64,000 nucleotides of DNA, taken from assembly GCA_963855995.1 (NCBI GenBank), contig OY979717.1:29242246-29306245 (forward strand). Direction: 5' to 3'. Positions within the stretch are counted from its first letter, which is position 1. Every line of letters begins with the position of its first letter. The DNA is from Muricea muricata. Lineage: Eukaryota; Cnidaria; Anthozoa; Malacalcyonacea; Plexauridae. Made by a program: the position numbers and the translations under genes. This document shows positions 12,016 through 64,000 of the stretch, piece by piece. The notes below the pieces were generated by a model. The model worked only from the letters and a program-made list of their open reading frames with translations, ran no database searches and was not told where the DNA came from.

Positions 12016-12016
12016 C

Positions 12017-26930: not shown

Positions 26931-26934
26931 TTTT

Positions 26935-28400: not shown

Positions 28401-30222
28401 ACCACAATAAAGTCAATGAAATTGTTTATTAAAAATTATTTTTAGGTGAATTGGTTACCAAGCGACGTCCATTTGTGACAACCCAGAACGTCTATCGTTG
28501 CACCAGGAAATCGTATGCATGACCCAGAAAGGCTCAGATAATGCTACATACGTTCGCGCGTACGTCGTCCTCTCTTAATCAACTATGAACATTACATAAG
28601 TTGTAATGTAGAAAATAACGTTTAATAACAAGTTTCTTCTTTCTTTCTTATAAACCCAAGTAGGATCTCAGCTTGAGTCTTCTTCTTTCATGAAGCACCG
28701 TTTCTCATGCAGGTATATTCGTTTATAGTACAAAACACAAAATGGTTACAATACATTTGTGATACCTACACATGCAACTGCGTAAAAAATTGAAGACTAA
28801 AAAATATCAAAATTTTATACTGCCCATGTGTTCCAGGATGAAAATAATCTATGTGCTCTGCCGAAAGGTGTATATTGAATAGACATCACTGAAAGTTTTC
28901 GCTAATTTGTATACATACCTATCATATTATCAAATTAGTCTATCGTTTTCTACCTCCAGCGAACTCCTGAATGATTACTCGCCTGACGAAATGTCAAAAA
29001 CAGGTCTTCATGTACTGACATCTCGCTGAATACATTCTTCCAGATTCAAAATACAACTCAATACATTGTCTGTATCACGTCCATTCTCTCTTTACTTCGA
29101 CTGTGTTATGAATAATTCTCCGTCTCCTTCACTACATTCCGCCATTCTCTTACAGTTTCATTCAACCAGCCATTTCGTACTTGACAACACTTGTATGGTC
29201 CGTTCTGCATGACGTTCATTATTTCCTACGCATGCATGAATTTACTTGAAAATTAATTTTGCAAGCTGCCAAAAGCCTCAACCCTGTCCTCATTATCATT
29301 ATTAAATATGATAAACTGAATTTCGGCTTTTACCCTCTACGTAGCGAATCCTATTGTCTTCTTATTATGAGTTCTGCCTGAGTGTTTATGCTACGTTTTG
29401 CTACGATACAGCCGAAGAGGAAAGCAGGCCTAAGGACCCTGTAGAGAGTTCTGAAAAGAATTATAATAGTTTCATTCCCTTGCATAGGTCATCAGCACAT
29501 ATAGGGTGTGTCATAAAAAATAGACCTTTAAAGTAGCCACAATTCAAGTTAGCCGAATCAGTTTTATTAATTCTTTAAAACAGCTCTGAATGCTTCGAAC
29601 GAAAAACAAAATGTTTTGTACATGAGAATTTAATAATAACGGCTTAAAATTTTCAGTGTGTAAGATCTTGTGCCACTTTTTGAATTATTAGTTCGAAGCA
29701 TTCTGAGCTGCCAAATTGATGCAAAGTGTCTACTTTCTATTGATGCATCCTGTATTTTCTTGAATTGCACGTCGGCCATATGTAAGTGGTAAGCACAAAA
29801 GAATATTCTATCATGCAGTTCTATATTGTGGGCACTAGCCAACGTGGGCGAGAAGCATTGTGTGGTCTGCCCCTAGACGTTCGTTGCAAGTCAAGAAACA
29901 ATAACTGGGCTCTTGAAGAATAATAGAATATTAGAACTATTAAATGCGATCATTGTAAGGGATGTGGCAAAAATAACTGTCTCGCTAAATACTTAAGCTT
30001 TATTCAATTACCAAGTTTATTAGCTAATTATGAACATGTATACTTCCATACTTTAATAAGTTAGTACTATCGCTTTAGCGCTTTTATGCTTTAACAGTCT
30101 TGTATTTATTCAGATAAAACAGGAAAGCATGTGTACATGATATATAAATCATTAAAATGTTCATTGTTCGAAGTTTAAAAGTGTTTAAATCACAATTGTC
30201 CCCTCAACATACAAGAAGGAAT

Positions 30223-33200
30223 TTACTTAAAATTGCTTATGTAAACATAAAGCACAGTTATTCTGCGTATCTTCCACTCATTCTTTTCCCTTTTTAAGAC
30301 CAACGTATAATATTTAACTGGCTTACAAAGCCATTCGTTGCAAGTACTTCCACACTTGGCATAGACAATGTTCTGAGGCAAACGGTCGACATCTTTTTGT
30401 ATTTGCCAGGTTCAAGGACATTTAATAGAATTGCCATTCCAAATGGGTGTCGATAGTTGTGGTTTATACTTGTTTTTTACGAGTAGGTAACGGCTCATGA
30501 GATTCTTGTACGTTACTGCACAGTTGGTTGGTAAAGAGCTGCATTCTTTGAAGAATAAATGCAGAAACAAACAGTATTAATGATAGAAACTGTATGCTTC
30601 TACTTCTATGCAGCTCTAATTCATCGAGGACCACAGCTGAGGAGATTTGCTTGTGTTTCACAAAAATCACTCATTCGTCTTTGGAGAAAAGTTCAAGCAG
30701 ATTGCTCGGAGAAATGTACTAAAATTTCATTTTCAGGATGTGTAAAATTACTTTTAACAAAGCCAAAATTCATAAACAATATTAATTTATATTACAATTT
30801 CCATCCCTCTAATTAAAGTCTGAGGCAACTAAACAAGAATGGAGCTTTCCACCTTAATTAACAAATTAGCAGAGACGGATTTGATTCACGCCTAATGCAC
30901 TAATTACTCCGAGCAGTTAATCACAACAAAAAAGATGGCATGTATATTTTACCAGAATGCATTGCGGAAGTCTAGAAAACACGACTAAAAAAAGATGTCA
31001 AGAAAAATATCTAATAATACAAAACTTTAACAAAACGAAGAAAATGACCTGCTCTGTTATTTTTGCTCTTGAAATGATTAGCGACCACAATGAATTCTGG
31101 TAAAATGTAGCGTAATGCGGGGCAAAACGAGACAGTGGGGCTAAATGAGACACTTGGGCTTAAATGAATATAGCGAGTGATCTACCGCTATTTGCCTAAT
31201 AAGGAATTGCGGGCTCATTCGTGATGCTTCTTGGCTTGTTTTGAAAGTTATTACAAATCAAACTATCAAAGGCTAATTTCTGACGAGAATTATCCTGAAT
31301 TTTGTGAGTGACATTGGATCCTGTCTGGTTAAATTAAGGTACATTATTATTTTATATTTTAAATAGTATTTCTTTTCTCTCGCAGGTCGTAACGATCGAA
31401 TAAAACCTTATTTATTTAAGAGGCATTAGCATGTGCCCTTTCATGTCAGATGTATATTTTGTTAATGTTGACTGTAATTTTTCGCATTGGACGACTTTTA
31501 ATTCACTCAGGCAGTTGGGGCAAAATGAGACAAGCCTACAGCCTTTTAAGTTTGTATACTTATGTGAACCTTTTTGTTTGTCGTTATCTGTTGTTGTGTT
31601 TACTAAATGATTCTGCACAACAGCACAATATTAATGTTGTCTCAATAAAGCAAAGTCACCAATTCTTTATGGATTTATTGCCAATGTAACATGTAAATAG
31701 GTCACCAAATTCTGGTGTGATACCAGTTACACATCATCCAATTCAAGTTGTGTGAAATTTTGCCTAGAAATGTTGCACCAATGGTCATTAGTATATGACT
31801 TTACTGCAAAATAAGCAATATTAACAACAATTTTAAATTTGGCTGCAAACTCATTGGTCATGATTTTTTGCCAATCAACCCAAAGGACAACCCTGATCTG
31901 TCATTTCGAAAACCACTTGTGACTGATGTATATAGTGTGAATAAAATGCCTGTCCACTGTATTATAATACTGGGGCAACTGTGTTAAATAAGCTGTGTGT
32001 GAGTAGCTTATAAATACTCAAATGTTGTGAAAATAGTTTAATAAGTGTACATATGTCAGTGATAGTTATAGTCTCGAAGATGTTATAAAGCGGCATGTCT
32101 CTTGTTAGCGACCAGTGGTAGACATGGTCGAACTACCATAGTATTATTTATTCTATTTGTATTCAGTGACATGTGTCAGTGGTGTTAAGTTTTTCCCACC
32201 AGTGATGAACTTGAAAGAAAAAACAAGTCTGCTTTGATCGACCATGCTTCAGACCCTGCTGGCCTCTGTTCTCCAACGAGTGAATAGACTATGACTGGTT
32301 TCTGATGTTTCATCAACATTTTGTCATCCAACCCTAGCCTGCAAAATGGTCCTAAGATCTGACACTGAGCATGTGCAAGATATACCAAATGTCATGTGTG
32401 TGATGTGTTCTGGTCCAAGTCTGCTGCAGGCAAGGAGTGAGATAAATGCTCCTTGTTTGAACATTATGGTAACAGGAAAACTGTCAATCCATGGTAGTCA
32501 TCTGAAATGCAACCTGTTTATATATTAAGAAACTGATAGTTAATGTATTGTTACATTTAGTTAAATCATTTGATTAAAAATTTTTTTATTTTTGAACATT
32601 TTTGTAGCATTTTATTTGCCTGTCTCGTTTTGCCCCACATGCTGGGGCAAAATGAGACAATAATGACTTGTTGTTTTTGTTCTCATAACACGACAGCCGT
32701 GTCTCCAAAAGAGTTAAATTACGATTTAAAACATCAAAGTCATAAACGAAATAATCTAAATATTTTTTTCTATTTGTGATGTTCTGAGCAACAGTTTTTG
32801 CATATCTGTAGTTATTTTTCACAAATTTTCATTAAATTTCATCAAAACTTTGGACAAAAATATGCCATGAAAAGGATGTAATTCGCAATGCGTAACGATA
32901 AACAGCATAACCGCACAGAATTTTTTTCATTATAGGTGGAGAAAAGACATCATTTATGGAGAATCGTATTTTTGTAAATAAAAAACGAAGAATACGTCAC
33001 AAAACTATCAAATCACTTGTTTTGAAACATATTTCTCGTTCTTTATTTACAAAAAATCCATTCGCTATGAATGATTATTATCTCTTGACTGCAAAGATTG
33101 TGCCAAAAAATCACTATGGCTTCAGGCATGCGCCAGCGAAAGTTATTTTAAAGGTTTATCCAACGAATTCCATTAAAGTTGTCTTGCCAAATGGTAGACT

Positions 33201-33651
33201 GTAAACTATGAGCGCGCAAGGGATGATGGATTATTGATTATTTTTCCTCTGATACTCAGGAAATTACATTCGTAACAGGTACATTTAAATTTATACCTTT
33301 CCCACTTGCCTTCCATGCTAAATGATTTTATTACCAGTTTAGAGGTGAAAATAAACAATAACCCGGGCGTTCGTAGTTTACAGCTTACGCTTCAGGAAAG
33401 ACAGCCTTCATTAAGTTCGCTGTAGAAATAAAACAGCTCCATAATGGCTGCCAACTTTTGTTAAAGAGTTGTGCTCAGATGTTACGAGTGCTGCTGTGTC
33501 AACACAAGTGTTTCAAATAAAATGCTGAGTTGTGCACTTTGAGTTTGCACTTCATTTTAAACTGGTTTTATTTTGAAGTGGTTGACTTATCGTAAATACA
33601 GCAATGGAAAATCAGGCAAAGTGTTCTACTTACAATACATTTGAAATCCAT
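30223..33651 (-). pseudogene. IL-17-like cytokine pseudogene (copy A)
   Basis: Exon 1 (33651 down to 33634) reads MDFKCI and keeps its GTAAGT donor. The large second exon lies at about 30572-30223, so the intron is ~3 kb. Exon 2 is clearly homologous to the intact 38-kb gene: [32 protein letters not shown] and VKYYTLVLKREKNEW are all recognisable. Three lesions are seen. The first Trp of the CPWTW motif is TGA (30412-30414). The splice acceptor and first exon 2 codons are deleted next to 30572. Two codons are missing before the final ITV strand. The TATA box is intact. The gene is dead as a protein but may still be transcribed. Confidence 0.9.
31108..32727. mobile_element. ~1.6-kb insertion in the intron of pseudogene A
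   Basis: The directly duplicated copy at 58.8 kb passes from AATTCTGGTAAAATGTA almost straight to TTTAAAACATCAAACTCAT, while this copy has ~1.6 kb in between. The insert carries GGGGCAAAAYGAGACA-type motifs at both ends (about 31118 and 32625-32660) and once near 31515. The right end is itself a palindrome around CCCCACATGCTGGGG. There is no ORF with a recognisable domain. Its class is unknown. Confidence 0.7.
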
Positions 33652-33736
33652 TTAGTCTATATTGTAGTAATCTTATTGTAGTTTTTCTACAGAACGTCGT
33701 AGTTGCATGTGCTGATCAATTGACTTTGGGGACCCA

Positions 33737-33743
33737 TTTTATA
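33737..33743 (-). promoter_or_regulatory. TATA box of IL-17 pseudogene A
   Basis: TATAAAA on the minus strand within CCTATAAAATGGGTCCCC, 92 bp before the ATG. The intact genes have the same context and spacing. Confidence 0.75.
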
Positions 33744-36700
33744 GGTTTTCTGGCGTTATATTATAATTTTTGCTGGAACACGTGAAGCTGGAACAAAACT
33801 CTATCACCTGTGTACGCTTTTGATTGCTTAACAGAAGAATACATGTAATTTACCCGCATGATCGGCATGTACTGTATATGCATGCTAATTGCCGAACAAA
33901 TCACAAATATGTGTTTTGCAATTTCCAGAGGATATGAATTATTCCATCCAATCGTATTGCTTGTAAATAATTTTATACTTTTATCATATACAACAGTTTT
34001 ATACAATTTTTTGTTGCAACAAAACGCATTGATTTATAAATGCATTAGTTGCTGACGTTGTATTATCAGCTATCTGCAGTATTTATTTTTTGCGTGACTG
34101 TATATTTAGCATTTGTTTGCCGTTTGATCTTCAAGTTTTTTTGGTGACTCATTTTAGTACTGGTGCGATTAAATATAAATAATTACACGCAGTGTTAGAT
34201 GTAGAGGTATATAAGGACGTTTAAAAGTGCGAAACCGGTCCTCGTAGGCAAGATCTTGAGCTGACTTCGTCAGTTTAGGCAGTAATAAGCAAGCTTCATT
34301 AGAGATATAGGCTCCTTGAATACCAGAAGTGATAAAGGATGATTCGATATGTCGACTGATTACTAGCTAGCTATATACGACTAACTTCCCGACGGAGGAC
34401 CGTTCCTCGATGGAAACGTTTCCCAGTTGTTTTATCGCTTCAGGCAGTCAAAGAAACCAAAATATTTCGTGCATTCTTTTATTCATACAACTCTTAAACC
34501 TGACGAATCCCAGCATGCTAAAGGACTGGGGCATTTATGTTGTTTGTAGTTGTAACATACATGTACAACCACAATAATACAAAATGAACACAGTTTAAGC
34601 TTCAAACGCGTATGTCAATATGCATTCAGGAATTATTCTGAAAATCTTATGTTGGTTTTAAGTCGAGTTAAAAGGAAGAGAGCACTAGCTTTTTATGATT
34701 ATTTAAAGTCAGCGTTTTATCGCTTTATATCCGGTTGTATATTTCCTATTTGAACTGTTTGTCTTGCGGTTGAAAATATTTGACAGCATTGTGGCTCAAC
34801 ATGCTGATAAAGTTGTACTGTATAGCTATAATTGCAAAAGAATGCTGCTACATCGCATTATCACCGATCACCTGCTGCGCTTTTTCTTTAGGCAGGATGG
34901 CAAACATTCTATATTTGGTCAGTAGTAATTCACGAGCGAAACACAAAGGGAATCATTCCCGCAGCGTGCGATGAAGTTACCTCAATTTGGATTTTTTCGG
35001 CTTAATTTTTCGACGTAGACAAACTTCATTTGTAAAATTGCTCCACCAATCTGACGGTACAAAATGGATCCATTTAAGACAATTAATTCACTCGCAGTTC
35101 TTGCTTTAAACAATACTTCAACTTGATTATTATATAATTGTGAATAATATTAAAAATAATTGGCATAGTAAAAAATCACTGACATTTTACAGCTAATTCA
35201 TTAAACGATGTCCTTTAAACATGCAGACCAAAATGGGAGCACCATGTGTTTAATCAGTCTAGAAATGTAGTACGGGGGTCATTTCTTATAGAGTTGGTAA
35301 ATGTTTTCTCACGGAGCAATGCATATATCTAATTAAGTTCAACTACGAAGATTACAACTTGTGATCCATTTAAGCTTTGAGCACTTAGAGTTTAAAGTTT
35401 GCCGCAAACGGCAATCGTTTTTGTACTAACTTAAAACAGAAATAGATTTAGTATTTTCTGACTACTTACTAAGATAAATAATTGCAAAAAAGTTGGTTAA
35501 TTTCAATACAGCACGGTCTCAGACTTCCTGAAACGAAGTTTCGAGAACATAATAATGGGAATTTTGATTTTCGTCTTGCAAGATATTGCTAGATAAAGAA
35601 GACATCCATTTTTCTTTTTGACTCTAGAAACTAGTGAACTATTCCCCGATTTACGTTGGTTAAGAGAAATAATTCCAAATTTAGAGGTGAAAAAGGCAAT
35701 ATAACACGTCTATCCCTTGCATGCTCATAAATGAAAGAGTACGATTTTGGAAGGACATGCAGCCTTAAGTTTATTCAATTAGCTATATATGCATTAATTT
35801 CAATGGCGGTCAAATCAAGACACCCATCCGAGTAATATAAATGTCCATGGTACTAAGGTGACCATGGTACTAGTTATGGCGTAGTGAAACCCAAGAAATA
35901 TACCGGCAATCATATCTTGTTACAGTTTCGCAATACTAAATTCAACGGATATGAAGAAAGCTTGCTGCTACAACCAGACTGTTTCGTACGACCCAAATGA
36001 CTGACTAGCGCAACCCAATACAACCATATTTGAATAGCTTTTGAATCATATGATCTTTTCTGTTCAACCTTGCGTAAACTTTCGACAAGACCGAAACCGC
36101 GGCTGCTTCAATTAACGAGGTATGTATCTACGTTGCCTAGTTACACAAACAAATCGTGAATTTCAAATTCTAGCTTGCAAGATCGAAATCGCAGTTCCCA
36201 TTATTCTGTCCTTAAAACTTCCTTTTAGGAAGTCTAGGATGTGCTGTATCGAAAATAGCCAATTTTCTGTTTTAAGCCTTACATTTACTCGTAACTGTCG
36301 TTCACTTATCAGTGTGACTGATGCAATTCAGTATGAACAAAGAACTGCACTTAATAATAACTGAACTTAATACAACTTGCAAAGCAACAAAAAGATCTAG
36401 TTTTCATCACATCATTGTAGATGACTTTGCTAAGGCAGTTACGGTCAAATGGAACCCAGACTCTACTGCTTATATTTAAAGCAGTGTTTTATGAGTTGTA
36501 CTATTGAAAGTATACTGCATATTAAGAAGAGTTTACAAAGTCGCATACTTACATTCATAATAAATGCATGGTGACGCCCATAGCAAGGACAACTTACAGT
36601 ATCCTGTGTTTACATTCTGGTTAGAAATGTGCATGATATATAGTGCAAGTTTTCACGCAGATATCACACATGCATTACTTATTTACATATTTACTTTCAA

Positions 36701-38076
36701 GAGTCATCCAACAGTTACTTGAAAAACGATTGTCCTTAAACCTTAAACTCCAAGCGCTCAACGCATAATTGGAGCACAATTTGTAAGATTCATAGTTGAA
36801 CTTTGCAGGTATTTGTGAATGTACTGTTCACGTAGGGAGAAATTTGCCCTCTAAGAAATGACTTCCATACTAGATTTCTAGACTGATTAAACGGTGCTCC
36901 CACTCTGCTCTGCATGTCTAAAGTTTATGTTTTGAAAGAACAACGTATTTGGGTCGAGCTCTGAAAAATCTCAGTGATTTTTTGTTATGTCGATCAATGA
37001 TTGTTAATTTTATTGACAAAAAGTTACCATTAGCTTAATTAGTATTATTTGAAAGAAGAACTATGAGTGTTTTAAATGGATTTATTTTCTGTGGGTTAGT
37101 TGATTGGTGGAAAAATTTTCAAAATAAAGTTTGTTTTAGCCGAAAAATGAAGCCGAGAATCCAAATTAAGATAAGTAACTTCATCGCATGCTACGGTAAT
37201 GATTCCCTTTGTGCTTTTCTCGTGAATTATTACTGACCACAATAGAATGTTTGCCATTCTGCTCAAAGAAAAAGCGCGACAGTTGATCAGCGGTAATGCG
37301 ATGTAGCTGCATTCTTTTGCAATTATAACTATACAGTATAATTTTTTCTGCATATTTAGTCACAATGTTGTCAAATATTTTGAGCCGCATGACAAACAGT
37401 TCAGATAGGAAGCCTACAAGCGAGTGATAAAGTAATAAGACGTTGACTTTAAATTTAATCATAAAGAACTAGTGCCCTCTTCTTTTTAAGTCGACTTAAA
37501 ACGAAGAGCCTTGTTTATTACTACCTTCACTGGCAAAGTTAGTTCAAGATCTTGCCTACGAGGAGAGTTTTAACACTTTAAACCTCTATAATTATATATC
37601 TTTACAGTACCATGCAGTACTAACATGAGTCACCAAAAAAAGTGAAGTTCAAACGGCAAACAGATGTTAACTATATAGTCACGTAGAAAATTAAATACTG
37701 TTCATTGACCGTCACAAACTAATACAATCTATAAATCATCAATGCGTTTTGTTGCACCAAAAATCGCTCTATTAAAAAGTATAGCTCTATGAAAAATATG
37801 AAATTGGTTACAAGCAATACGATTGCATGGAATAATTCATATCCTCTTGAAATTGCGAAACGCATATGTGTGATTTATTTCGGCAATTAGCATATACATG
37901 CCGATCATGAGGGCAAATTATATGCAATTTTCCGCTGAGCAATCGAAAGCGGGGTCGTGGACGATAGAGTTGTTCCAGCTTTACGTGTTCCAGCACAAAC
38001 TATTTTTACGAAATATATATGTTATTTTGGACGTTGCATGACATTTATTTTTAGTACAAATAAACCCAGAGAAACC

Positions 38077-38083
38077 TATAAAA
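38077..38083 (+). promoter_or_regulatory. TATA box of IL-17-like gene B
   Basis: TATAAAA in the context CCTATAAAATGGGT, 89 bp upstream of the start codon. The context is shared with the other copies. A TTCCAGC...TTTACGT block about 100 bp further upstream is also conserved. Confidence 0.8.
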
Positions 38084-38165
38084 TGGGTCCCCGAATTCAA
38101 CTGATCAACACATGCAACTACGACTTTCCGTAGAAAAAACGAAGAAGTACTAAAATCAAGACAAC

Positions 38166-38841
<676 letters not shown>

Positions 38842-39566
38842 ATTACTCATACTGTATTGAGGTGGCAATCGTGATTTTAAACACTTTTAAAACTTCGAAC
38901 AATGAACATTTTAGTAATTTATACACTATGTACACTTGCTTTCATGTTTTATCTCTATAAATACAAGACCGTTAAAGCACGCACTGGAATAGATTGAATG
39001 AAAAGAATATTTATCCTTATCAAAGATTTGAAATCTACTTGATTACAGAAAGTAATAAATAGTAACTTATTAAAGTATTGAAGCGTACCCGTTGTTAACT
39101 TTAAATTTTCCACTAATAGACTAGCTAGTTGAATAAAGCTTATGTATTTAACAAAACAGTTATTGTTGCCACATAGCCTACAATGATTGAATGTGATAAT
39201 TATATTCTATTGTTCTTCAAAAGCGCAGTTACATTATTCTTGACTTGCAACCAACTTCTCGGGGCAGACTGCACAATGCTTCTCGCCCACGTTGGCTAGT
39301 GCCCACAATAGAACTGAGCTTGTGCTTCACCACAAACATGGTTGACGTGCAAGTCAAGAATGGGGTGCATCAATAAAAAGTAGACCGTTTGCATTAATTT
39401 TACTGCTCAGAAAGCTAAGAAAGACGCAAGACCTTATCACACTAGGAATTTTAAAGGTCTTTATTATTGATTTCCCATGCGTACAAAACAGTTTGTTTTT
39501 CGTTCGAAGCATTCAGAGCTGTCAAAATGATATAAAAGATTGAAGGGTTTGAATCCAGGTTGAAAA

Positions 39567-39844
39567 ATTTTACTATTTATTTGTTCTTCCAGATTAACAA
39601 AAAGTTTAAATACTTTTGTCTAACGTTTCGGTCTCCTCTACGTATAGTTATAGCTTAATAGTTGATGAACGTGCACGCGCGGACTCGCGTGAGCAAACTC
39701 GCGAACTTCCAGCTGACGCAAGTCAGTAACGGTAAACTTTTAATTTCATAGTCTTTGATAATGGTTTCCGTAGAGGAGACCGAAACGTTAGACAAAAGTA
39801 TCTAAACTTTTTGTCAATTTGGAAGAACAAATAAATAGTAAAAT
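39567..39844. mobile_element. TIR MITE (~278 bp)
   Basis: ATTTTACTATTTATTTGTTC at the left is mirrored at the right (GAACAAATAAATAGTAAAAT). The inverted match continues through AACGTTTCGGTCTCCTCTACG for about 75 bp. It sits in the right arm beyond IL-17-like gene B. Confidence 0.85.
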
Positions 39845-41027
39845 ATAAAAGATGCGGCTAATTTGAATTGCAGCTACCTCAAAGAGTCTAATTTTTATTG
39901 ACACAACCTATTTATACTGATGACCTATACGAGGGAACGAAATTTTTAATGTTATTTCTTTTCAGAACTTTGCCAAGGGTCGTTAAGCTTGTTTTCCACT
40001 TAAGCTGTATCGTAGCGAAACGTAGGGTAAACACTGCGGCAGAACTAATGATACGAGTACAAAGAATACCCTACGTGACGGAAAAAATCCGGAACCCAGT
40101 CCATTATCTCAAATAATGGCAATGGATTGGGTTGGGGCTTTTAACAGCTTGCGTGAAAATTAATTTTAGAGTGAATTCATATATGCGTAGGAAATAATGA
40201 ACTTCATGCAGAACTGAGCATACAAGTGTTGTCAAGTGCAAAGTTCTAATTTTGTTAGAGATTGTAAGAGAGTGGCGGAATGTAATGAAAGCGACAGAGA
40301 ATTCTTGACATGCAACCAATCTCTCGGGAATCATAAGACAATGTTACTCGCCCACTACGACTGGTGCGCGCAATAGAATTGATAAAATATTCTTTTGTGC
40401 CTCACCACCAACATGGCTGACGTGCAAGTCAAGAATTGTTCATAACACAGTCAAGGTGCAGAGAGGATCGACGTGATACGGCCAATGCACTGAGTTGTAT
40501 TTCGAATCCGGAGACGTCAATGAAGACCTGTTTTCTGACATCTGTAATGCCTTTAGAAGAAAATGTCTTGCAAAATGTGGCTGGGAATGCAAAATTAAAG
40601 TGTTCCCAAAGCAAGGCGAGATGGGCAGTAAATCGTTCTCAAAGGATACGAAGCGAGTATACAGACGGTGGGCGATTTAATAAGCAGTTATTGGAGATGA
40701 TATTATAGATAGATATTATAGGTGAGGCTTTGAGTTATTTTATTGATGTTAGAAACTGAAATTTATTACGTTTTTCTGTGTTATGTCATGGATGGAGAAC
40801 AAATTAAACTAAATCTATATTGCTGTTATTGTAAATACCGCTGTTTTGCTGTCATGACAGTGTCCAATATTTGAGAAATTACGGACGCTTGTTCAAAATA
40901 ATGACTGGTAGAAGTTCATTGTTAAAAAGAATAGTCAGCTAGAACAATAGATCGAATAACGAATTACGTTTCGTAAAGACGAAACCATTGAGTATTTTGA
41001 TAATATAATCATCTGGGTAATAATTAT

Positions 41028-42370: not shown

Positions 42371-42676
42371 TTCAAAGAGGGTGGTAAAGGGTATTTTCGT
42401 GAGCCGTTGTCGATTAATATCTGTTGCGTCATGGGAATTGCGAAATGCTTGATTTTGGTGTCGTGAAATGTGATTTGTTTTACGCCCGTGAGGTGAGATT
42501 CTCAATCAAAATGCTCTGTGAAATGAGAATAATCGATGTCAGTCTCGTGAATTGTGACTCCATTGTTCAAATAGGAGTAAAAATATTTTCGGGGGTCGTC
42601 GGACTTTCTCGTAACCCGAACGTAAATCCCCCTCCCTGTAAACGTGATCCCCAACCCCTTTTACCACCCTCTTAAA
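42371..42676. mobile_element. ~0.3-kb TIR element next to the orphan IL-17 promoter
   Basis: CTTCAAAGAGGGTGGTAAAG at the left mirrors CTTTTACCACCCTCTTAAAG at the right. The interior has loosely repeated GTGAAATGTGA / GTGAATTGTGA motifs. It ends within ~15 bp of the point where IL-17 promoter homology stops. Confidence 0.7.
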
Positions 42677-42689
42677 GTTCTTTTTGAAT

Positions 42690-42880
42690 TAGACTAAAAA
42701 TAGATGTCAACATGATTAAGTTCCTCAGATTGTGAAATAATTAGTACGAAGTAGCTATTCCATAAAGGACGTAAAGCTGAAACAAAACTACATCCTCTGT
42801 AGATGTACGACCGCTTTCGATTGTCAAAGGAAATTTGATGATATGATTGGTATGCATAATAGTGGCAAAATTTTTAATTG
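42690..42880 (-). promoter_or_regulatory. Orphan IL-17-type upstream region (gene lost)
   Basis: On the minus strand this reads CAATCGAAAGCGG, then GTTTTGTTTCAGCTTTACGTCC, then TTGACATCTATTTTTAG. The same blocks occur in the same order upstream of the intact genes at 37.93-38.06 kb and 46.64-46.78 kb. Homology ends before the TATA box, where a TIR element begins, and no exon 1 or exon 2 homology was seen to the left. It is a remnant of a fifth, divergently oriented IL-17 copy. Confidence 0.65.
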
Positions 42881-46550: not shown

Positions 46551-46791
46551 TTGATTAGTAATTATTATTTCATAAGAAAATACGCCAATTACTATGCATG
46601 CCATTCATTTAGCAAATCATACACAATTTTTATTCCTGGTGGCGGAATCGAAAGCGGCCATGAAGACCAAAAAATGCAGTTTTGTTCCAGCGCTATGTCC
46701 TTTACGTCATATCCGCATGGTATTATTTTCTCTAAACATGCGGTAATGGAACTTGACGTTTATTTTTAGGCCAAATGAGGTTGGGGAGAAC

Positions 46792-46798
46792 TATAAAA
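46792..46798 (+). promoter_or_regulatory. TATA box of IL-17-like gene C
   Basis: TATAAAA in CTATAAAATGGGT, 92 bp upstream of the start codon. It is preceded by the conserved TTGACGTTTATTTTTAGG block. Confidence 0.8.
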
Positions 46799-46883
46799 TG
46801 GGTGTCAACGCACAATAAGGCAAGACAGTTACGACGTTTCGAAGAAGAACGAGCGCAAAAAGAACTATATACAGTAAAAGAAA

Positions 46884-47781: not shown

Positions 47782-48032
47782 TGTATCACTACGGACATGA
47801 GATACAAACAATTTTGTAACGAACATTTCAAGCACATGCTTTCTTGTTTTATTAAGAGTACTTACTGGAGATAGAAGCGATTTTTACTGATATTTACCAT
47901 TAGATATTAAAATTAGGATTGTAAGAAGATGTCAATATGGGTAAATGGTCATAACGTATTAACTTATTTGAAGTATTAGAGCACATAATATCTGACATAT
48001 TTTTGATATATTGTAGTAGAACAATAGGAAAG

Positions 48033-48493
48033 TTTAAACATGGTGAAGGCTATTTCAGATACCTTGAAGCAGATCGGTCCCAGTACTTTCGTTAATTTCA
48101 CACGGCCAAACAAAGGTCTTATAATATTGCCGGCTTTTGCGCCCGACGACTTTCAGGCTTTGGCTAAGCGTACTGTTTTGCTATATCAAAACTATTCTCA
48201 CTCACTGGGACTGTATCTACTTCACCAAATTTAGCTGAAGAGGGAACGCGTAGTGCGACAATCATTACTTGCCCTTCGGGCTCGCGCTTTAGCTAAATTT
48301 TGTGAAGTAGATATACTCCTAGTGAGTGAGAATAGTTTTAATATAGCAAAACAGTACGCTTAGCCAAAGCCTGAAAATCGTCGGGCGTAAAAGGTGGCAA
48401 TATTATAAGACCTTTGTTTGGCGGTGTGAAATTAACGAAAGTACTGGGACCGATCTGCTTCAAGGTATCTGAAATAGCCTTCACCTTTAAACA
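48033..48493. mobile_element. Foldback element F1 (shared core, private arms)
   Basis: Near-perfect inverted arms: TTTAAACATGGTGAAGGCTA at the left, the complement at the right. They enclose a 139-bp core (48194-48332) that is itself palindromic (TTCTCACTCACTGGGACTGT... and complement). The core recurs at 50101-50238 with different arms. The 64-codon frame on the left arm has no domain and its complement is mirrored on the right, so I do not call it a gene. Confidence 0.85.
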
Positions 48494-48499
48494 CCAATC

Positions 48500-49890: not shown

Positions 49891-49976
49891 AAGATATCAA
49901 CCTCGTCCCCAGGGTCATATTTGTGGGCGCGGTGAGGAAATAGATGACTCTTGTAAAGGCTGTAAAAACGGTCATG

Positions 49977-50311
49977 GCTTTATAGGATACCCTAAAGGAC
50001 GAAATGTCGAGAGAGCACTGGGACTGTGTTGCCCGTGTGTTTTGTGTATCCCCATACATATAATAACTATCAATCACGAGTCATTCTTGGGTTGTCACAT
50101 TTCTCACTCACTGGGACTGTATCTACTTCACCAAATTTAGCTAAAGAGGAAGCGCGTAGCGCAACAATCATTACTCGCTATTCGGGCTCGCGCTTTAGCT
50201 AAATTTCGTGAAGTAGATACAGTCCCAGTGAGTGAGAAATACACAAAACACAGGGGCAACTCGGTCCCAGTGCTCTCTTGACATTTCGACCTTTAGGGTA
50301 TCCTATAAAGC
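49977..50311. mobile_element. Foldback element F2 (shared core, private arms)
   Basis: Arms pair through GCTTTATAGGATACCCTAAA at the left and its complement near 50292-50311. The 138-bp core 50101-50238 is the same as in F1. The left arm has ~45 bp of extra unpaired sequence (50050-50100). Confidence 0.8.
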
Positions 50312-50317
50312 AAGATG

Positions 50318-52190: not shown

Positions 52191-52195
52191 GGATG

Positions 52196-54790: not shown

Positions 54791-55188
54791 TGAAAAAACA
54801 TATAGCTGTTCCAAAATATCATACATTTGAGTGAATAACGCCGTTTTACAACAATGTTCGTTGAACGTGTTCGACCTACAAAAGACAAACTACAACTGTA
54901 AACACACTTCCAGAGCTTAGCCTTAAGGGTTCAAGTACACCGTATCTGACTTGTTCATTTGTAATTGATGAGTATTGGGCATAAAATTATAAAAAAGAAG
55001 ACAAAGCTAACTACTATGTACACAATTTAAGCGCTAAAAGTTACCTATGTCGATGGATAGATAGATAAATAGCTTAATTATGAACTTCCATGGCAGTATA
55101 CACTGAATTGCGGAAATTTTACAGTTTTAACATACAAGTTAAAAAATACACTATAGCTAATTTATAATATTACAATATTATACAAAAG

Positions 55189-56075
55189 TTAATTCTTTGA
55201 ATTATAAAAGCGTGCACTACTATTTATAAAGGAATCACGGAATCTGTTTGTTTTGCAAGGAGGAATAGTAAATGATCTGTTCTTTCGCAATGCTACCGAT
55301 GGTTTACTTACATTAAATGGTAAAAGAGCATGCCACCTGTCTTCTCTGTTTATACAAATCTTTTTAAAAAAGGTCTGACAAAGTTCTGATCTACGTTGGT
55401 AAAGGTTACAAAGTCCAGATTTAGCCAAGGCTTCTTTATACGTGAGGTCGTAGCCGTATATTATACACATAGCCCCTTTTTGGATTCTTTCAAGTGACAG
55501 ACTAAGATATTCTGGCAAGGCGTTATGGTAGACCTGGCACGCATAAGTTAGTATTGATCGAGTACATGCTACATAAAATTGAACTAGCTCTTGACTTGGA
55601 ACTTTAGCGCGTTTCAATTGTACAAGAAAATAAAGTCTCTTGGCTGCTTTTTGACAGTAGCATCTATATGGGAGTTTCATTTAAGATTATTTTGAAGATG
55701 TACTCCTAGTATCTTGCCAGAAGTAACAAGTTCGACTAGTGATTCATCAATATGAACTGGCTCTCGATCTGTTGGTAAACGGGAAAATGAAATTCTTAAG
55801 TCTTTGCATTTCTTTGGGTAAAGTTCGAACTTATTCTGGTTGGACCATGTACTTATTTCATCAACAAAGGTTTGTGCTTGGCTGGCAATATTTTCTCTGA
55901 CAACTTCATAGATAGTAGTATCATCCAAATATTTATATAATCCATCGGCAGATGGTGCCTGAAGATCGTCAATCATGTCTTTGATAAGGAATGTACGGGA
56001 TGCATCGGCCAAGCAAATTTTGCAAACACTGCTGTGCTCCATTGAATACTCCTGACATAGAAGCTGCAAGAACAT
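55189..56075 (-). pseudogene. CR1-like LINE reverse transcriptase fragment
   Basis: Two adjoining frames in different registers (56075-55677 and 55680-55189) give the middle and end of a LINE reverse transcriptase. The catalytic box reads YLDDTTIYE (usual YxDD), followed by FVDEISTWSNQNKFELYPKK, GKILGVHLQNNL, then KRLYFLVQLKRAKVPSQELV, RSILTYACQVYHNALPEYL and a terminal TNRFRDSFINSSARFYN. One frameshift separates the parts. It is 5'-truncated and lies inside the hAT element, so it inserted after the hAT. Confidence 0.9.
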
Positions 56076-56356
56076 TTTGCTTTACGTTCTGAGCGCACAC
56101 AATTGTTATTTGCTATACTTTATTTTAGCAGAAAACATTAACCACAGTCAAAACGTTTCCCGAAAAACTGTCATGACTCATCTGGCTATAAATTAATTCT
56201 AGTTTCAATGTTCGTTGAAAAAACGTATCGCCCAAAATTTGCCCGACAAAATATCAGTAAAGCAGAAAAATTTGCCCGATAAAACAGTCATTTTCTAGCA
56301 TTGGGGGTGTCACACCCCACACCCCCCCCCCCCCAGAAGTTACGCCCCTGGGTGAA

Positions 56357-58006
56357 ATGGCAGAAAGTGACGAAGAACTGTTTATTACTCAGAATACTTT
56401 TATAACAGAAGAAATAACTGAGAGTGATGTGATATTAGAGGGAGGATCAGATATTGAGGCAAGGTTTAATCGCTGGTTATGCGATGCAGAAATACAGGAA
56501 CGTGTTCCGAAGTCTGTTCCTTTGGCCACGCGATACAAGGATAGATGGGCGGTGAAAACTTTCGAAACGTGGCGTTTAACCAGAGAAAAATGGTGGTTAG
56601 TGATAAGAAAATCCGTTGTTTTAAGACGCCTCTCGAAAATATGTCGGCAGAGGAGCTTAATAAGTCGATTTCGTATTTTGTGTTTGAAGTCAAAAAGCAA
56701 GACGGCAGAGAATATCCAGCTAATTCACTGCATAGTTTGGCTTCTAGTTTACAACGTTATCTAAAAGCTCAGTGTGGGAAAAATTTTCCGATTCTTCAAT
56801 GACGATTTTTTCAGCAAATTACGTACATCACTCGATACTGTAATGAAAGAGCGATCGGCGGCTGGAATAGGTGTTAAGCCCACAAGAGCTGAAGTCATTT
56901 CACAGGACGAAGAGTATCGATTATGGGCAAAGAATATCCTTGGGGAAGACAGTCGCACTCAGTTGGTCGAGACGTTAATCTACTTGTCTGGACTTCATTT
57001 CGCATTACGGGGTGGAAAGGAGCATCGTCGTCTGCGTTGCGTTAATTCTCAAATTGTTTTGAAGTACGACGATAAAGAGAAGAAATATCTGGAATATACG
57101 GAGGATATTAGTTATACAAACGCTGGTGGTCTTAGCAACCGAAAGACAAGAGGGAAAATTACTCATGCACATGAAAATGCTGACCCATCGCAATGCATAG
57201 TTCGTCTGTATGAAAAGTAATGTAGTCTGTGGTAAGAGTTTGTTTTATTTAATCTACAGTGTATGTAATTTTTAACATGTAAATTCGGTTTAGTCAAAAT
57301 AGTCTGTATTTAGTGTTTATAAAATATTTTTGATTTATTTAGTCCGAAACAGAGAACCAGTGATGCTTTCTACCTGACTCCGTTAAGAATTCCAAAGAAT
57401 GATTGTTAGTATTCTACAGTTCCCTTGGGCCACAACAAGTAGCAAGCACGGTAAAGCGATTGTGTGAGGCTGGGGGAATATAAGGTTTTAAGATAAATCA
57501 TAGCTTACGATCGAGCGACATCTGCAACGAGATTGTACGACGCGAAAGTTGACGAACAGCTAATTTGTGAAAAAACAGGTTTGTTTGCTTCATGGTTATA
57601 ATAGTTAGAGACTTGATAGGATGTATTTTTGGTAGTTTTTTACACACTAATTTAACGTGGCCATATATTATAGAGTTTAGTTTCTGTGTAGGTGCAAGGT
57701 ATTTCATTGTGTTAAATTTGACGTGTGGGATTAATTTCAGGTCATCGAAGTCGGGCTGTGCGAGCGTACAAAAGAGCAAGTAAAGAGTTAATATACGGTA
57801 ATTTGACAGCAACAAAAAAGACGTGTACAACGACGATTGAAGTAAAGGAGGTGAACCCGGAGCCTGTCGAAGTGAAGAAGAAAGCGACTCACGAGCCTGT
57901 TGAAGAAAGTGAAAATAAGAAAAAAGCTTTTGAGCAGCATCATGGAGGACATGAAGGTAAGAAAAAACCTTTCAACATTACTATTAATTTTAACTCAAAC
58001 TCTTGA
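56357..58006 (+). pseudogene. Crypton-type tyrosine recombinase (DUF3504-like), two introns, decayed
   Basis: Exon 1 (56357-57231) starts MAESDEELF and includes ENMSAEELNKSISYFVFEVK, KLRTSLDTVMKERSAAGIG and ETLIYLSGLHFALRGGKEHR, where the Arg after LHFAL fits the first catalytic residue. Exon 2 (57343-57578) ends NHSLR...TRLYDAKVDEQLICEKTG. Exon 3 (57741-58006) begins HRSRAVRAYKRASKEL with the H-R and the Tyr nucleophile. Both introns (57232-57342 and 57579-57740) have GT-AG ends that restore the protein exactly. Breaks are a frame change near 56565-56600 and back by ~56800, TAA at 57218-57220, TAG at 57407-57409, and further indels including a 4-bp insertion at the H-x-x-R motif. Tyrosine recombinases of this type excise and integrate Crypton DNA. 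The C-tail is Lys/Glu-rich. Confidence 0.85.
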
Positions 58007-58358
58007 ATGCAATAATTTTGATTTTATAATGACAGTCTTTGTGCTTAATGACTGCGTTGTGTATTAAAGTACGCATACATGAATGCAATCTTTTGTTTTG
58101 AATAAAATTTATAATGTTGTGTTAAGTTAATTGAAAGGAATTAGCGGTAGGTTATTATTTTAAAATAATAACCTGGTATCCGGTTTTTATTTTTTAGTAA
58201 TAACCTGTTACCCGGTTTTTATTTCATGTAAAATGTTTCTTACAACCCCGCCTTTCCCCCGGAATATTCAAATACCATCGCCTACTTTCAGACACTGGTT
58301 ATTACGCTGAAATTAAAAACCGACGGAAAACAAAAGAATAGGGTGTGGCGAGTTTATA

Positions 58359-59800
58359 AAAGTAGGTAACGGCTCATGAGATCCTTATACGTTACCGCAC
58401 AGTTAGTCGGTAAAGAGCTGCATTGTTTGAAGAATAAATACAGAAACATTGGGAACAGTTTAAGCAAAGAAAACAGTGTTAATGATAAAAACTGTATGCT
58501 TCTGTTTCTATGCAGCTCGAATTCATTGCGGACCACAGTTGAGCACGAGATTTGCTCGTGTCTTATTAAAATCATGTGTGTAAAAATGATGTGTAAATTA
58601 AATTACTTTTAACAAAGCCAAAATTCATGAACAATATAAAACGTAAACCATAACGAAAAAGATGGCAGCATGTATATTTACCAGGATGCATTGTGGAAGT
58701 CTGGAAAAGACGACTGAAAAGAAAGAAGATGTCAAGAAAAATATCTAATAATATAAAACTTTAACAAAACGAAGAAAATGACTTGCTCTGTTATTTTTGC
58801 CCTTGAAATGATTTGCGACCACAATGAATTCTGGTAAAATGTACATTTGCCATCTCTACGTATTTAAAACATCAAACTCATAAACGAAATAATCTAAATA
58901 TTTTTTACTATTTGTGACGTTCTAAGCAATGGTTTTTGCATATCTGTAATTATTTTTCACAAATTTTTATTAAATCTCATCAAAACTTTGGGCGAAAATA
59001 TGCCATGAAAAGGATGTAATGCGTAGTGCGTGACGATAAACAGCATAACTGCACAGAATTTTTTTATTATAGGTGGAGATAAGACATCATTTATGGCGAA
59101 TCGTATTTTTGTAAGTAAAGAACGAAGAATACGTCACAAAACCATCAAATAAGTTGTTTTAAAACATATTCCTCGCTCCTCATTTACAAAAAATTCATTC
59201 GCTATGAATGATTATTATCTCTTGACAATTATTATATCTTGCGCGAAAAAATCATTATGGCTTCACGCATGCGCCAGTCGAAATATACCTTAAAGGTTTA
59301 TCCAACGAATTCCATTAGGTTATCTTGCCAAAAGGTAGACTGTAAACTATGAGCGCGCAAGGGATGATGGATTATTGATTATTTTCCCCCTAATACTCAG
59401 GAAATTACCTTTGTAACAGGTACATTTAAATTTATACCTTTCCCACTTGCCTTCCATGCTGAAAGACATTATTACCAGTTTAGAGGTGAAAATAAACAAT
59501 AACTCGGGCGTTCGTTGTTTACAGCTTACGCTTCAGGAAGGACAATCTTCTGTAAGTTCGCTGTAGAAGTAAAACAGCTCCATAATGGCTGACAACTATT
59601 GTTAGAGAGTTCCAGTTAAACTATTGCTATGAGTACTAGTACTGCTGTGTTGACACAAGTTTTAAATAAAATGCTGAGTTGTGCACTTTGAGTTTGCACT
59701 TCATTTTAAATTGGTTTTATTTTGAAGTGGTTGACTTATCGTAAATACAGCAATGGAAAATCAAGCAAAGTGTTCTACTTACAATACATTTGAAATCCAT
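58359..59800 (-). pseudogene. IL-17-like cytokine pseudogene (copy D), truncated by transposon
   Basis: Exon 1 (59800 down to 59783, MDFKCI) and its GTAAGT donor match copy A. Exon 2 starts at 58458 but its acceptor dinucleotide is AA instead of AG (58459-58460). The coding homology covers only the first ~33 residues ([19 protein letters not shown]) before stopping at about 58359, next to the end of the Crypton-like element. The C-terminal two thirds, including all the IL-17 core cysteines but one, are absent, and they are not found on the other side of the element. The TATA box is mutated to TTTAAA (59886-59892). Confidence 0.88.
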
Positions 59801-62800
59801 TTAGTCCTTATTGTAGTACTCCTATTGTAGTTTTTCTACGGAACGTCGTAGTTGCATGCGCCGATCAATTGACTTTGGGGACCAATTTTAAAGATTTTCC
59901 TTGCGTAATATTATAATTTTTGCTGGAACACGTGAAGCTGGAACAAAACTCTATCGCCTGTGTACGCTTTTAATTGCTTAACAGAAGAATACATGTAATC
60001 AGTTGCCCGCATGATCGGCATGTACTCTATATGCTAATTGCCGAACAAATCACAAATATGTGTTTCGCAATTTCCAGAGCATATGAATTATTCCATGCAA
60101 TCGTATTGCTTGTAAATAATTTTATACTTTTATCATATACAACAGTTTTATACAATTTTTTGTTGCAACAAAACGCATTGACTTACAAATGCATTAGTTG
60201 CTGACGTTGTATTATCAGTTATCAGTATTTATTTTTTGCGTGACTGTATATTTAGCATTTGTTTGCCGTTTGATCTTCAAGTTTTTTTGGTGACTCATTT
60301 TAGTACTGGTGCGATTAAATATAAATAATTATACCCAGTGTTAGATGTAGAGGTATATATGGACGTTTAAAAGTGTGAAACCGGTCCTCGTAGGCAAGAT
60401 CTGGAACTGACTTTGTCAGGCAGTAATAAGATAGGTTCATTAGAGATAGAAGCTCTTTGAATACCAGAAGTGATAAAGGATAATTCGATATGTGGACTGA
60501 TAACTGGCTAGTTATACGACTAACGGAGGACCGTCGCTCGATGGAAACGTTTCCCAGTTGCTTTATCGCTTCAGGCAGTCAAAGAAACCAAAATATTTCG
60601 TGCATTCTTTTATTCATACAACTCTTAAAACTGACGAATCCCAGCATGCTAAAGGACTGGGCAATCTCTTACATTTATGTTGCTTGTAGTTGTAACATAC
60701 ATGTACAACCACAATAATACAAAATGAACACAGTTTAAGCTTAAAACGTATGTCAATATGCATTCAGAAACTTTTCTGAAAATCTTACGTTGGTTTTAAG
60801 TCGAGCACTAGTTTTTTATGATTAGTTAAAGTCAGCGTTTTATCGCTTTATATCCGGTTGTATATTTCCTATTTGAACTGTTTGTCATGCGGTTGAAAAT
60901 ATTTGACAGCATTGTGGCTCAACATGCTGATAAAGTTGTACTGTATAGCTATAATTGCAAAAGAACGCAGCTACATCGCATTATCACCGATCACCTGCTG
61001 CGCTTTTTCTTTAGGCAGGATGGCAAACATTCTATACTTGGTCAGTAGTAATTCACGAGCGAAACACAAAGGGAATCATTACCGAAGCGTGCGATGAAGT
61101 TACCTTAATTTGGATTTTTGCAGCTTAATTTTTCGACGTATAGGCAAACTTTATTTTTAAAATTGCTCCACCAATCTGACGGTACAAAAATGGATCCTTT
61201 TAAGACAGTAAATTAAGACACTCGCAGTTCTTGCTTTAAACAATACTTAAACTTGATTATTATATAATTGCGAATAAAATTAAAGATAATTGGCATAGTA
61301 AAAAATCACCGACATTTTGCAGCTAATTCATTAAACGTTGTTCTTTAAACATGCAAACCAAAATGAGAGCACCATGTGTTTAATCAGTCTAGAAATCTAG
61401 TACGGGGTCATTTCTCATAGAGAAGGTAAATGTTTCCTTACGTAGCAATGCATTTATCTGCAAAGTTCAACTACTTCTACGAACCTTACAACTTGTGATA
61501 CATTTACGCCTTGAACGCATAGAATTTAAGGTTTGCCGCAAACGGCAATGGTTTTTGAGCTAACTTAAAACATAAACATATTTAGTATTTTCTGACCACT
61601 TAGATAAATAATTGCAAAAAAGTGGTTAATGTCAACACAGCACGGTCTCAGCTAGACTTCCGATCCTGAAACGAAGTTTCGAGAACATAATAATGGGATC
61701 TGTGATTTTGATCTTGCAAGCTATTGCTAGATAAGAAGACATCCATTTTTCTTTTTGACTCTAGAAACTAGTGAATTATACCCCGATTTATGTTGGAGCC
61801 GCCGATTTACCCAAGTAATTACCATAATTTATAGCAAGTAAATTCGCCGTCATAGGTTTCCTATAGGTGCATCCGACGGCGTCGACGCTGCATATTAAGT
61901 AATATTTAAGAGAAATAATTCCAAATTTAGAGGTGAAATAAGCAATAACGCGACATCCCTTGCGTGCTCATAGATTAAAGTGTACGATTTTGGAAGGACA
62001 ACCTTAAGTTTATTAATCGTATATGCATTGACTTCAGTTGCGGTCAAATTAAGACACGCTCATCCGAGTAATATAAATGTCTATGGTACTAAGGTGACCT
62101 GTTTCAAGATTTGCTGAATTATGGCGTAGTCAGAAACCCAAGAAACATGCCGACAATCATATCTTGTTATAGTTTCGAAATACTAAATTTAACGGATATG
62201 TAGAACGCTTGCTGCTACAGCCAGACTGTTTCGTACGACCCAAATGACTGACTAGCGCAACCCAATACAACCATATTTGAATAGCTTTTGAATCATATGA
62301 TCTTCTCAGTTCAATCTTGCATAAACTTTCGACAAGACCGAAACCGCGGCTGCTTCAATTAACGAGGTATGTATCTACGTTGCCTAGCTACACAAACAAG
62401 TAGTGAATTTCAAATTCTAGCTTGCAAGATCAAAATCGCAGTTCCCATTATTCTGTCCTTAAAACTTCCTTTTAGGAAGTCTAGGATGTGCTGTATTGAA
62501 AATAGCCAATTTTTTTGCCATTATATTATTTTGTAAATAGTTACAAATACCAGATTTATTTCTGTTTTAAGCCTTGCTTACATTTACTCGTAACTGTCGT
62601 TCACTTATCAGTGTGACTGATACAATTCAGTATGAACAAAGAACTGCACTTAATAATAACTAAACTGAATACAACTTGCAAAGCAACATATATATAGATC
62701 TAGTTTTCGTCACATCGTTGAAGATGACTTTGCTAAGGCAATTACGGTCAAATGGAACTTAGACTCTACTGCTTACATTTAAAGCAGTTTTTTATTAGTT

Positions 62801-64000
62801 GTATTATTGAAAGTTTATATTAAGAAGAGTTTACAAGGTCGCATACTTACATTCATAATAAATGCATAGTGACGCCCATAGCAAGGACAACTTACAGTAT
62901 GCTGTGTTTACATTCTGGTTAGAAATGTGCATGATATATATAGTGCCGGCAAGTTTTCACCCAGATATCACACATACATTACTAATTTACATATTTACAT
63001 TCAAGAGTCATCCAACAGTTACTTGAAAAACGATTGTCCTTAAACCTTAAACTCCAAGCGCTCAACGCATAATTGAGCTTTGCGGGTATTTGTGAAAGGA
63101 CTGTTGACCTAGGGAGAAATTTGCTCTCTAAGAAATGACTTCCATACTACATTTCTGAACTGATTAAACGGTGCTCCCACCCTGCTCTGTAGGTTTAAAG
63201 TTTATGTTTTGAAAGGACAACGTATTTGGGTCGAGCTCTGAAAAATCTCAGTGATTTTTTATTGTGTTAATGATTGTTGATTTTATTCACAAAAAATTAC
63301 CATTAACTTAAATAGTATTATTTAAAAGAAGAGCTACGAGTGTTTTAAATGATGGTTCATTTTGTATAAATTGATTAATTGGTGAAGGAATTTTCAAAAT
63401 GAAGTTTGTCTTAGCCGAAAAATGAAGCCGAGAATCCAAATTAAGGTAAATAACTTCATCGCATGCTACGGTAAAGATTCTCTTTGTGCTTTTTTCGTGA
63501 ACTATTACTGACCACAATAGAATGTTTGCCATTCTGCCCAAAGAAAAAGCGCGGCAGGTGATGCGCCGTAATGCGATGTAGCTGCATTCTTTTGCAATTA
63601 TAACTATACAGTATAATTTTTTCTGTACATTTAGTCACAATGCTGTCAAATATTTTAAGCCGCATGACAAACAGTTCAAATAGGAAATCTGCAAGCGAGT
63701 ATAAAGTGATAATTAAGACGTTGACTTTAAATTCAATCATCAAAAACTAGTGCCCTCTTCTTTTTAAGTCGTCTTAAAGCGAAAAATCTTGTTTATTACT
63801 ACCTTCACTGGCAGAGTGAGTTCAAGATCTTGCCCACGAGGAGAGTTTTAACACTTTAAACCTCTATACCTTTACAGTACCATGCAGTACTAAAATGAGT
63901 CACCAAAAAAAGTGAAGTTCAAACGGCAAACAGATATTAAATATGTAGTCACGTAAAAAATTAAATACTTTTCATTGACCGTCACAAACTAATACAATCT
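58362..64000. repeat. Second copy of the IL-17 palindromic duplicon (direct repeat of 30.48-37.73 kb)
   Basis: Collinear with 30480-37732 throughout. Examples are GAGCGCGCAAGGGATGATGG at about 33211 and 59350, the segment at 34780-34975 against 60900-61095, and GACCCAAATGACTGACTAGC at about 35990 and 62237. It lacks the 1.6-kb intron insertion of copy A and has ~110 bp extra at about 61797-61908. The last bases match position 37732, so the window ends about 440 bp before the place where a plus-strand IL-17 exon 1 would start. Confidence 0.92.

Follow-up and report, generated by a model that had tools for sequence, protein, structure and literature searches.

How does a family of cytokine genes grow when its members lie in mirror-image pairs, one partner of which is broken? 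The question is raised by a stretch of 64,000 nucleotides (nt) of the anthozoan Muricea muricata (assembly GCA_963855995.1, contig OY979717.1, here C2:29242246-29306245), the whole of which is called the window below. A first-pass annotation had described, from 29080 to 64000, five related loci (A, B, O, C and D) of the interleukin-17 (IL-17) type in divergent pairs, and had proposed that whole palindromic units are duplicated while the minus-strand partner repeatedly dies. Among animal cytokines IL-17 is one of the oldest, and it is recognised by its disulfide knot; the locus also raises the question of what these proteins have kept of that knot. Taken as a whole, the data are best explained by one end of an IL-17-type cytokine cluster, made of mirror pairs that were copied as six two-pair blocks and whose minus-strand partners are broken; we consider this explanation very probable.

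The genome searched comprises 453 Mb in 74 contigs, and gene models were derived from the genome sequence only. For the study of the array, 200 kb around the window were added and the resulting 264-kb stretch was scanned with profiles; positions are given in window coordinates unless another contig is named.

IL-17-like genes and their broken partners

All five loci were located by self-comparison, profiles and gene models. The plus-strand genes B and C are intact. Gene B has a TATA box (CTATAAAATGGG, 38076-38087), a first exon of 18 nt (MDLKFI, 38166-38183) of phase 0 with the donor GTAAGT, and a second exon (38476-38841, including the stop codon) that encodes the remaining hydrophobic leader and a complete IL-17 domain (PF06083). 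Gene C has the same TATA box CTATAAAATGGG at 46791-46802, a first exon of 27 nt (MDSKSIMCM, 46884-46910), also of phase 0, with the donor GTTAGT, and a second exon with an IL-17 domain (PF06083) at 47410-47781, including the stop codon. In both genes the TATA box lies about 90 nt 5' of the start codon, the acceptors end in AG (that of C reads TATTTTCAG), and a hydrophobic leader is visible in the spliced protein. The intron of B contains a long (TA)n run (38293-38419). The corresponding start of the intron is open in the database protein P0003 and begins with the same 11 residues, so that automatic gene prediction places the protein start inside the intron. The idea that P0003 is an intact orthologue of A was dropped; a larger tree places it among the B-types, at an unresolved position.

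The curated PF06083 cut-off of 24 bits is passed by B (32.3 bits, E-value 1.3e-7) and C (27.0 bits, E-value 6.1e-6), and the 19 proteins of alignment A3 all match this family at an E-value of 0.1 or better. Among PDB profile matches, 25 of 26 are IL-17, human IL-17A and IL-17F being the closest human relatives among the PDB entries, and the structure-match entries listed for an AlphaFold2 model of C (mean pLDDT 75.5) are IL-17 in 50 cases out of 50. The profile check that the IL-17 proposal called for, together with the fold match, thus came out in its favour. On their sequences, B and C are filed as IL-17-like proteins under PF06083 without the canonical knot, and not as canonical IL-17. With a tiny first exon, a hydrophobic leader and one IL-17 domain, the intact genes would encode small secreted dimeric cytokines, either homo- or heterodimers. 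By inference from the family, they would signal through receptors of the SEFIR (IL-17-receptor) type; the genome has four SEFIR loci, with five matches that pass the cut-off, each with a putative receptor or adaptor role, and a PDB comparison of one of them showed similarity to the adaptor TRAF3IP2 (Act1; E-value 9.6e-7).

The minus-strand genes A and D are pseudogenes. Gene A retains its first exon (MDFKCI, 33634-33651) with the donor GTAAGT and an upstream TATA box CTATAAAATGGG (33744-33733); in its second exon (30223-30567) a stop codon replaces the W of the CPW motif, and a deletion of about 25 nt has removed the splice acceptor. Gene D retains its first exon (MDFKCI, 59783-59800) with a degraded TATA box; its second exon (58353-58446) is a remnant that has lost the acceptor AG and is truncated after ...MSRYLLL (~58353). 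The divergent partner of D was correctly placed outside the window: this gene, E, has its upstream half inside (61906-64000, plus strand, 86.9% identical to 35660-37730), its first exon at 64438 and its second at 69936. Its exon-2 protein is identical to database protein P0004, which is placed on a 2.38-Mb contig and not on C2.

The mirror partner of C is the orphan promoter remnant O (42669-42796, minus strand; promoter profile E-value 4.1e-8), with weaker homology up to about 43.0 kb. In an initial scan for O, queries of 200 nt scored no higher than shuffled sequences. When the upstream stretch of C (46400-46950) was aligned to O, the score was 222, whereas 100 randomised queries reached at most 152.5, and in a further scan O obtained an E-value of 6.2e-6 against 0.39 for the best hit in a reversed control. 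Chance similarity was therefore rejected for O, longer queries and profiles having given a signal where the 200-nt queries had not. No exon 2 was found for O, and the short first exon of 18-27 nt ascribed to all five loci is shared by A, B, C and D but is not established for O.

Mirror pairs and the larger array

Self-comparison revealed that the promoters of A and B are arranged as mirror images about ~35.91 kb, in line with the annotated centre near 35.9 kb. The left inverted arm, upstream of A (33572-35431, minus strand), is mirrored by 36713-38244 (71.8% and 75.0% identity, gapped BLAST). The second exon of A with its 3' flank (29039-30569, minus strand) is mirrored by that of B at 38486-40512, in pieces of 74.8-87.9%, and the two second exons are 87.9% identical in inverted orientation. 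At about 75% identity with gaps, the A/B arms are old and not near-perfect copies. Gene conversion confined to the second exons of A and B was considered and dropped, since ungapped identity is alike in arms, exon 2 and 3' flank (85-92%). The divergent A/B unit (32720-37730) has a direct copy at 58857-64000 (90.0% over 2993 columns and 86.9% over 2153).

The annotated extent of the cluster holds within the window but falls short on both sides. To the left of A, 26316-28305 (minus strand) contains the remnant of a further unit in two pieces (26316-26578 and 27625-28305), and such remnants lie at 26.3-29 kb, before the annotated cluster start. A candidate plus-strand promoter of this leftmost remnant, at about 29 kb, was not counted; it resembles O (score 204 against a randomised maximum of 143) and not the promoters of A, B, C or D. 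To the right, the array continues to a length of about 165 kb and consists of six tandem copies of a block with one A/B pair and one O/C pair, of which the window contains one end. The minus/plus promoters of the six A/B-type pairs lie at ~33.6/38.0, 59.8/64.2, 99.7/104.5, 124.2/129.2, 150.8/none and 180.6/185.4 kb, and those of the six O/C-type pairs at 42.7/46.7, 74.3/78.3, 107.2/111.3, 134.2/138.3, 160.0/164.0 and 187.3/191.4 kb. The fifth B-type gene was not found, in a stretch containing a run of N, so that its absence is not evidence. The plus-strand genes found, five B-type and six C-type, all have an intact coding sequence, a TATA box, an ATGGAT... first exon of phase 0 and a GT[A/T]AGT donor; the promoter and exon 1 of the third B-type gene are about 460 nt apart. 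The B- and C-types have the promoter blocks AATCGAAAGCGG, GTTTTGTTCCAGC, TTATTTTTAG and TATA in common, which suggests that they are under common control.

A promoter tree (FastTree, 23 promoters) splits the six A-types from all others (support 1.000), groups the six O-types (0.996) and the six C-types (1.000), and separates O and C from A and B (1.000). The five B-types lie close together, but the long O/C branch joins among them (0.416, weak), so that they do not form one clean group. From these splits it follows that the mirror pairs are older than the amplification and that the pairs were copied as pairs, in a block of two. Going by the sequences, the order of growth is mirror pairs first and block amplification later. 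The proposed growth by whole palindromic units is thereby borne out, with the refinement that the block carries two pairs, A/B and O/C.

The blocks are mosaic: identity between blocks 1 and 2 is 93.4% over the A/B half and 98.8% over the O/C half. A second type (II) is represented by blocks 3 and 6, which are 99.0% and 97.9% identical to each other and 92.5-94.3% to the remaining blocks. The exon 2 sequences of gene copies C1, C4 and C5 are identical over the 357 coding positions compared, and that of copy C2 differs at one of them; between the C copies of type I and those of type II, divergence amounts to 4-5% over exon 2 and 8-9% in the upstream sequence. We envisage that an inverted duplication produced each gene pair and that the blocks then spread by unequal crossing-over, together with conversion between copies, as block mosaicism and the near-identical C copies suggest. 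The dead partners were most likely carried along in a block that also held a useful gene.

None of the 12 minus-strand partners is intact. Pseudogene copies A2, A4 and A5 share one truncation and the loss of the acceptor; a frameshifting deletion of ~100 nt is common to A3 and A6, whose tail also reads VAYVC; A1 has a deletion and a stop of its own; no exon 2 was found in any of O1 to O6. The claim that the minus partner dies thus stands as a count (0 of 12 intact against 11 of 11 for the plus genes found), whereas "repeatedly" rests on about four independent lesions (A1; A2, A4 and A5; A3 and A6; O1-O6) against none on the plus side, with a one-sided p of 0.0625 if both sides were at equal risk. 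A Fisher test on copy counts gives p = 7e-7, but the copies are not independent, and the window by itself gives p = 0.10. The dN/dS ratio between B and C is 0.45, with a range of 0.29-0.47 over 20 B-by-C comparisons, which points to constraint; ratios of 0.86-1.14 among B1, B2 and B4 come from 7-9 changes and are uninformative either way. For A1 against B1 the ratio is 0.36, and A therefore probably died late.

Could the array be shorter than it appears, with later blocks representing a second haplotype or a mis-join? The block types run in the order I, I, II, I, I, II, the pairs of blocks three apart agree well in their A/B and O/C halves (94.1% and 98.8% for blocks 1 and 4, 97.9% and 98.6% for 2 and 5, 99.0% and 97.9% for 3 and 6), and the 264-kb stretch contains 5000 N in total, all of which an assembly artefact would accommodate. 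However, the A/B and D/E units differ by 6-7% ungapped and 10-13% gapped, and the A and B arms by about 25% gapped, which is assumed to be above allelic divergence; the difference between type I and II C copies, given above, points the same way. In addition, the C-like P0002 and the B-like P0003 appear to share one 123-kb contig elsewhere, judging from equal contig size. An artefact is therefore unlikely, though it deserves more weight than the idea that a fold-back transposon makes up the mirror arms and moved IL-17 promoters without gene duplication, which we regard as very improbable. The latter idea draws on an inverted-repeat element of about 220 nt within the A/B arm (36722-36944, plus strand), identified in a genome search with an arm piece and dispersed over contigs C1, C2, C3, C5, C7, C11, C16 and C63 (main pieces 70-79% identical; eight copies clustered at C16:8.50-8.59 Mb). 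This element makes up only about 28% of the 781 nt of right arm searched against the genome, and 61 matches were listed, from 40 scored out of 84 candidates. Outside the array these are copies of the element (query up to 260), save one match of 44 nt on C16. That the arm is otherwise confined to the array among the candidates scored speaks against a transposon as the unit, and the symmetry moreover extends from the promoter across both exons into the 3' flank. The preferred explanation remains duplication of gene pairs.

The C-terminal half of the cystine knot

The C protein, used as query against the genome, gave 25 matches: 14 at C2:29.27-29.44 Mb, nine at C11:4.33-4.46 Mb and two on C12. 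We compared the C-terminal tails of 37 rows (36 different), namely 19 database proteins, nine genes of the array and nine of contigs C11 and C12; the count does not include P0010, which has no tail, or the fragment P0016, whose end reads VAYVY. The C-terminal knot pair of IL-17 is spelled Cys-x-Cys. No row has such a tail, and all 37 have aromatic-x-aromatic instead (V-A-Y-V-Y or near), including some that are merely 20-31% identical to C. The sampling was seeded with the IL-17-like family of this array, so that relatives with Cys-x-Cys may exist in other species. Structure alignments end at residue 109 of the C model and residue 151 of IL-17A; if the last strand is carried on free of gaps, Tyr102 and Tyr104 would fall at positions 144 and 146, those of the knot cysteines Cys144 and Cys146 of IL-17A.

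The rest of the cysteine framework is conserved. Three core cysteines occur in every one of 23 rows. The pair that follows the motif RxP..I..A, left without its knot partners, is likewise kept in all 23, with a spacing of two residues in four rows, three in 18 and four in one. The CPW cysteine is present in 18 of the 19 rows of alignment A3, the nineteenth being a fragment; in P0011 the motif reads CRW. Four distant database members have an additional cysteine in a later loop. Mature B and C contain five cysteines and keep both the CPW and the CxPV cysteine. Human IL-17A has Ser at the position of the CPW cysteine of B and C. A third bond exists in invertebrate IL-17 (PMC4517768), and by our own reading it would join the CPW and CxPV cysteines. 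The two stranded cysteines may be bonded to one another, or else between the subunits of the dimer.

A second IL-17 cluster, L029-L035, was observed on contig C11 (the nine matches mentioned above). The seven of these nine that were read also lack Cys-x-Cys, and their cysteine layout differs (AKCTNCDLNKC or AKCTxDLKCDAKxC, later KDC). Database protein P0013, placed on a contig of another size, is identical to the protein of the C12 gene. A genome-wide PF06083 search listed ten matches, each in the array or the C12 gene and none canonical, although it is a weak search that also missed all nine C11 places and several array genes.

The knot would be normal if an unseen third exon or an alternative splice form supplied the missing cysteines, and gene models drawn from genome sequence alone leave room for one. 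Yet an in-frame stop follows the tail in all 11 plus genes, the V-A-Y-V-Y-type tail is kept in every row counted, even in the most diverged, which would be needless if it were spliced out, and no canonical form is among the PF06083 matches listed, a weak point given what that search missed. We consider a normal knot completed in this way highly improbable. The same small probability applies to the proteins belonging to another cystine-knot hormone family, PTTH- or neurotrophin-like, that merely resembles IL-17. The lack of the C-terminal CxC would suit such a family, and Foldseek with the C model listed one PTTH-Torso complex among 50 rows. The other 49 are IL-17, and PF06083 scores above the cut-off, the CPW motif and the PDB profile and structure matches described above all argue for IL-17.

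With B and C read as IL-17-like cytokines, a wider picture can be offered tentatively, and we hold it to be possible rather than likely. Anthozoan IL-17 cytokines in general would be without half of the classical cystine knot, with aromatic residues in place of the two C-terminal cysteines and with the stranded pair, spaced 2 to 4, bonded together or across the dimer; the full knot would be a bilaterian addition or would have been lost once at the base of the lineage. The array would be a diversity generator, each mirror pair retaining a live gene alongside a pseudogene that serves as donor in gene conversion. With every IL-17 gene read here lacking the C-terminal knot half, stepwise assembly of the knot becomes testable, and the array is a readable case of cytokine family growth in which one partner decayed per copy.

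Neighbouring sequences and known IL-17 systems

To the right of the IL-17 array, at 196312-209485, units of about 3.3 kb are repeated in tandem (95-98%). Within the window, self-complementary stretches of ~280-640 nt (3520-4160, 39567-39844, 48032-48492 and 49977-50311) are probably short fold-back elements, and a minisatellite (~19-nt shifts in self-comparison) forms two blocks of opposite orientation (9129-9434 and 10917-11181). A block at 12016-20477 occurs in three diverged direct copies (pieces 74-90%), with inverted pieces at 16466-17082 and 19847-20477 (89%) and no frame over 110 amino acids. An intronless frame of 280 amino acids at 8037-8879 (minus strand) has hydrophobic ends, three near-identical repeats of 22 residues (66-nt units, 99%) and no Pfam match at an E-value of 0.01; it looks like a secreted or GPI-anchored repeat protein. 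Mobile-element genes lie at 648-2111 (an integrase with DUF5641, presumably BEL/Pao-like), 55189-56081 (a reverse transcriptase piece below the Pfam cut-off) and 56765-57220 (DUF3504). An Rfam scan of the window at gathering scores gave no match. Elsewhere, one GFP-like locus was observed in the genome, its pieces being separated by stops. The solved structures nearest to an 81-residue piece of it are of the DsRed and coral chromoprotein types, which fits an anthozoan and is indirect support for a cnidarian origin. Searches for relatives in viral and prokaryotic contigs gave 3 and 53 pattern matches, respectively, none of which was confirmed.

IL-17 domains are described as having four knot cysteines, the two C-terminal ones being named in the sea urchin work, and invertebrate IL-17 as having 6-8 conserved cysteines (PMC8353272, PMC5457136). 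For anthozoans, Saco et al. 2021 (PMC8353272) reported 11 sequences in Pocillopora damicornis and three in Nematostella, for which an earlier survey had reported none (PMC4517768); the absent knot half may help to explain this disagreement between surveys. The genes described here resemble those of that survey in the invertebrate CPW motif, in having two exons, the commonest number in mussel, and in the tandem duplication of expanded repertoires. They differ from them in the number of cysteines, five in mature B and C against 6-8. No remark on cnidarian C-termini was found in the accessible text of PMC8353272, nor, at the level of titles and abstracts, any mention in the open literature of the C-terminal cysteines of cnidarian IL-17.

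A close likeness is to the SpIL17-1 cluster of the sea urchin (PMC5457136), where eight SpIL17-1 genes and one SpIL17-10a gene lie within 59.8 kb as closely related tandem two-exon genes whose first exon covers no more than the beginning of the leader. The same authors remark that two of the sea urchin subfamilies, 3 and 9, are without the two C-terminal cysteines, which sets a precedent. That loss, however, concerns two subfamilies, with truncation or other cysteines offered as reasons, whereas here the tail is full and both positions are replaced throughout the rows counted. Mirror pairs with a dead partner are not described in the accessible text on the sea urchin clusters, unlike the situation here. 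What is known is a tandemly expanded invertebrate IL-17 family, and what is new is its arrangement in mirror-paired blocks with one dead partner in each pair, together with a domain that lacks the C-terminal half of the knot.

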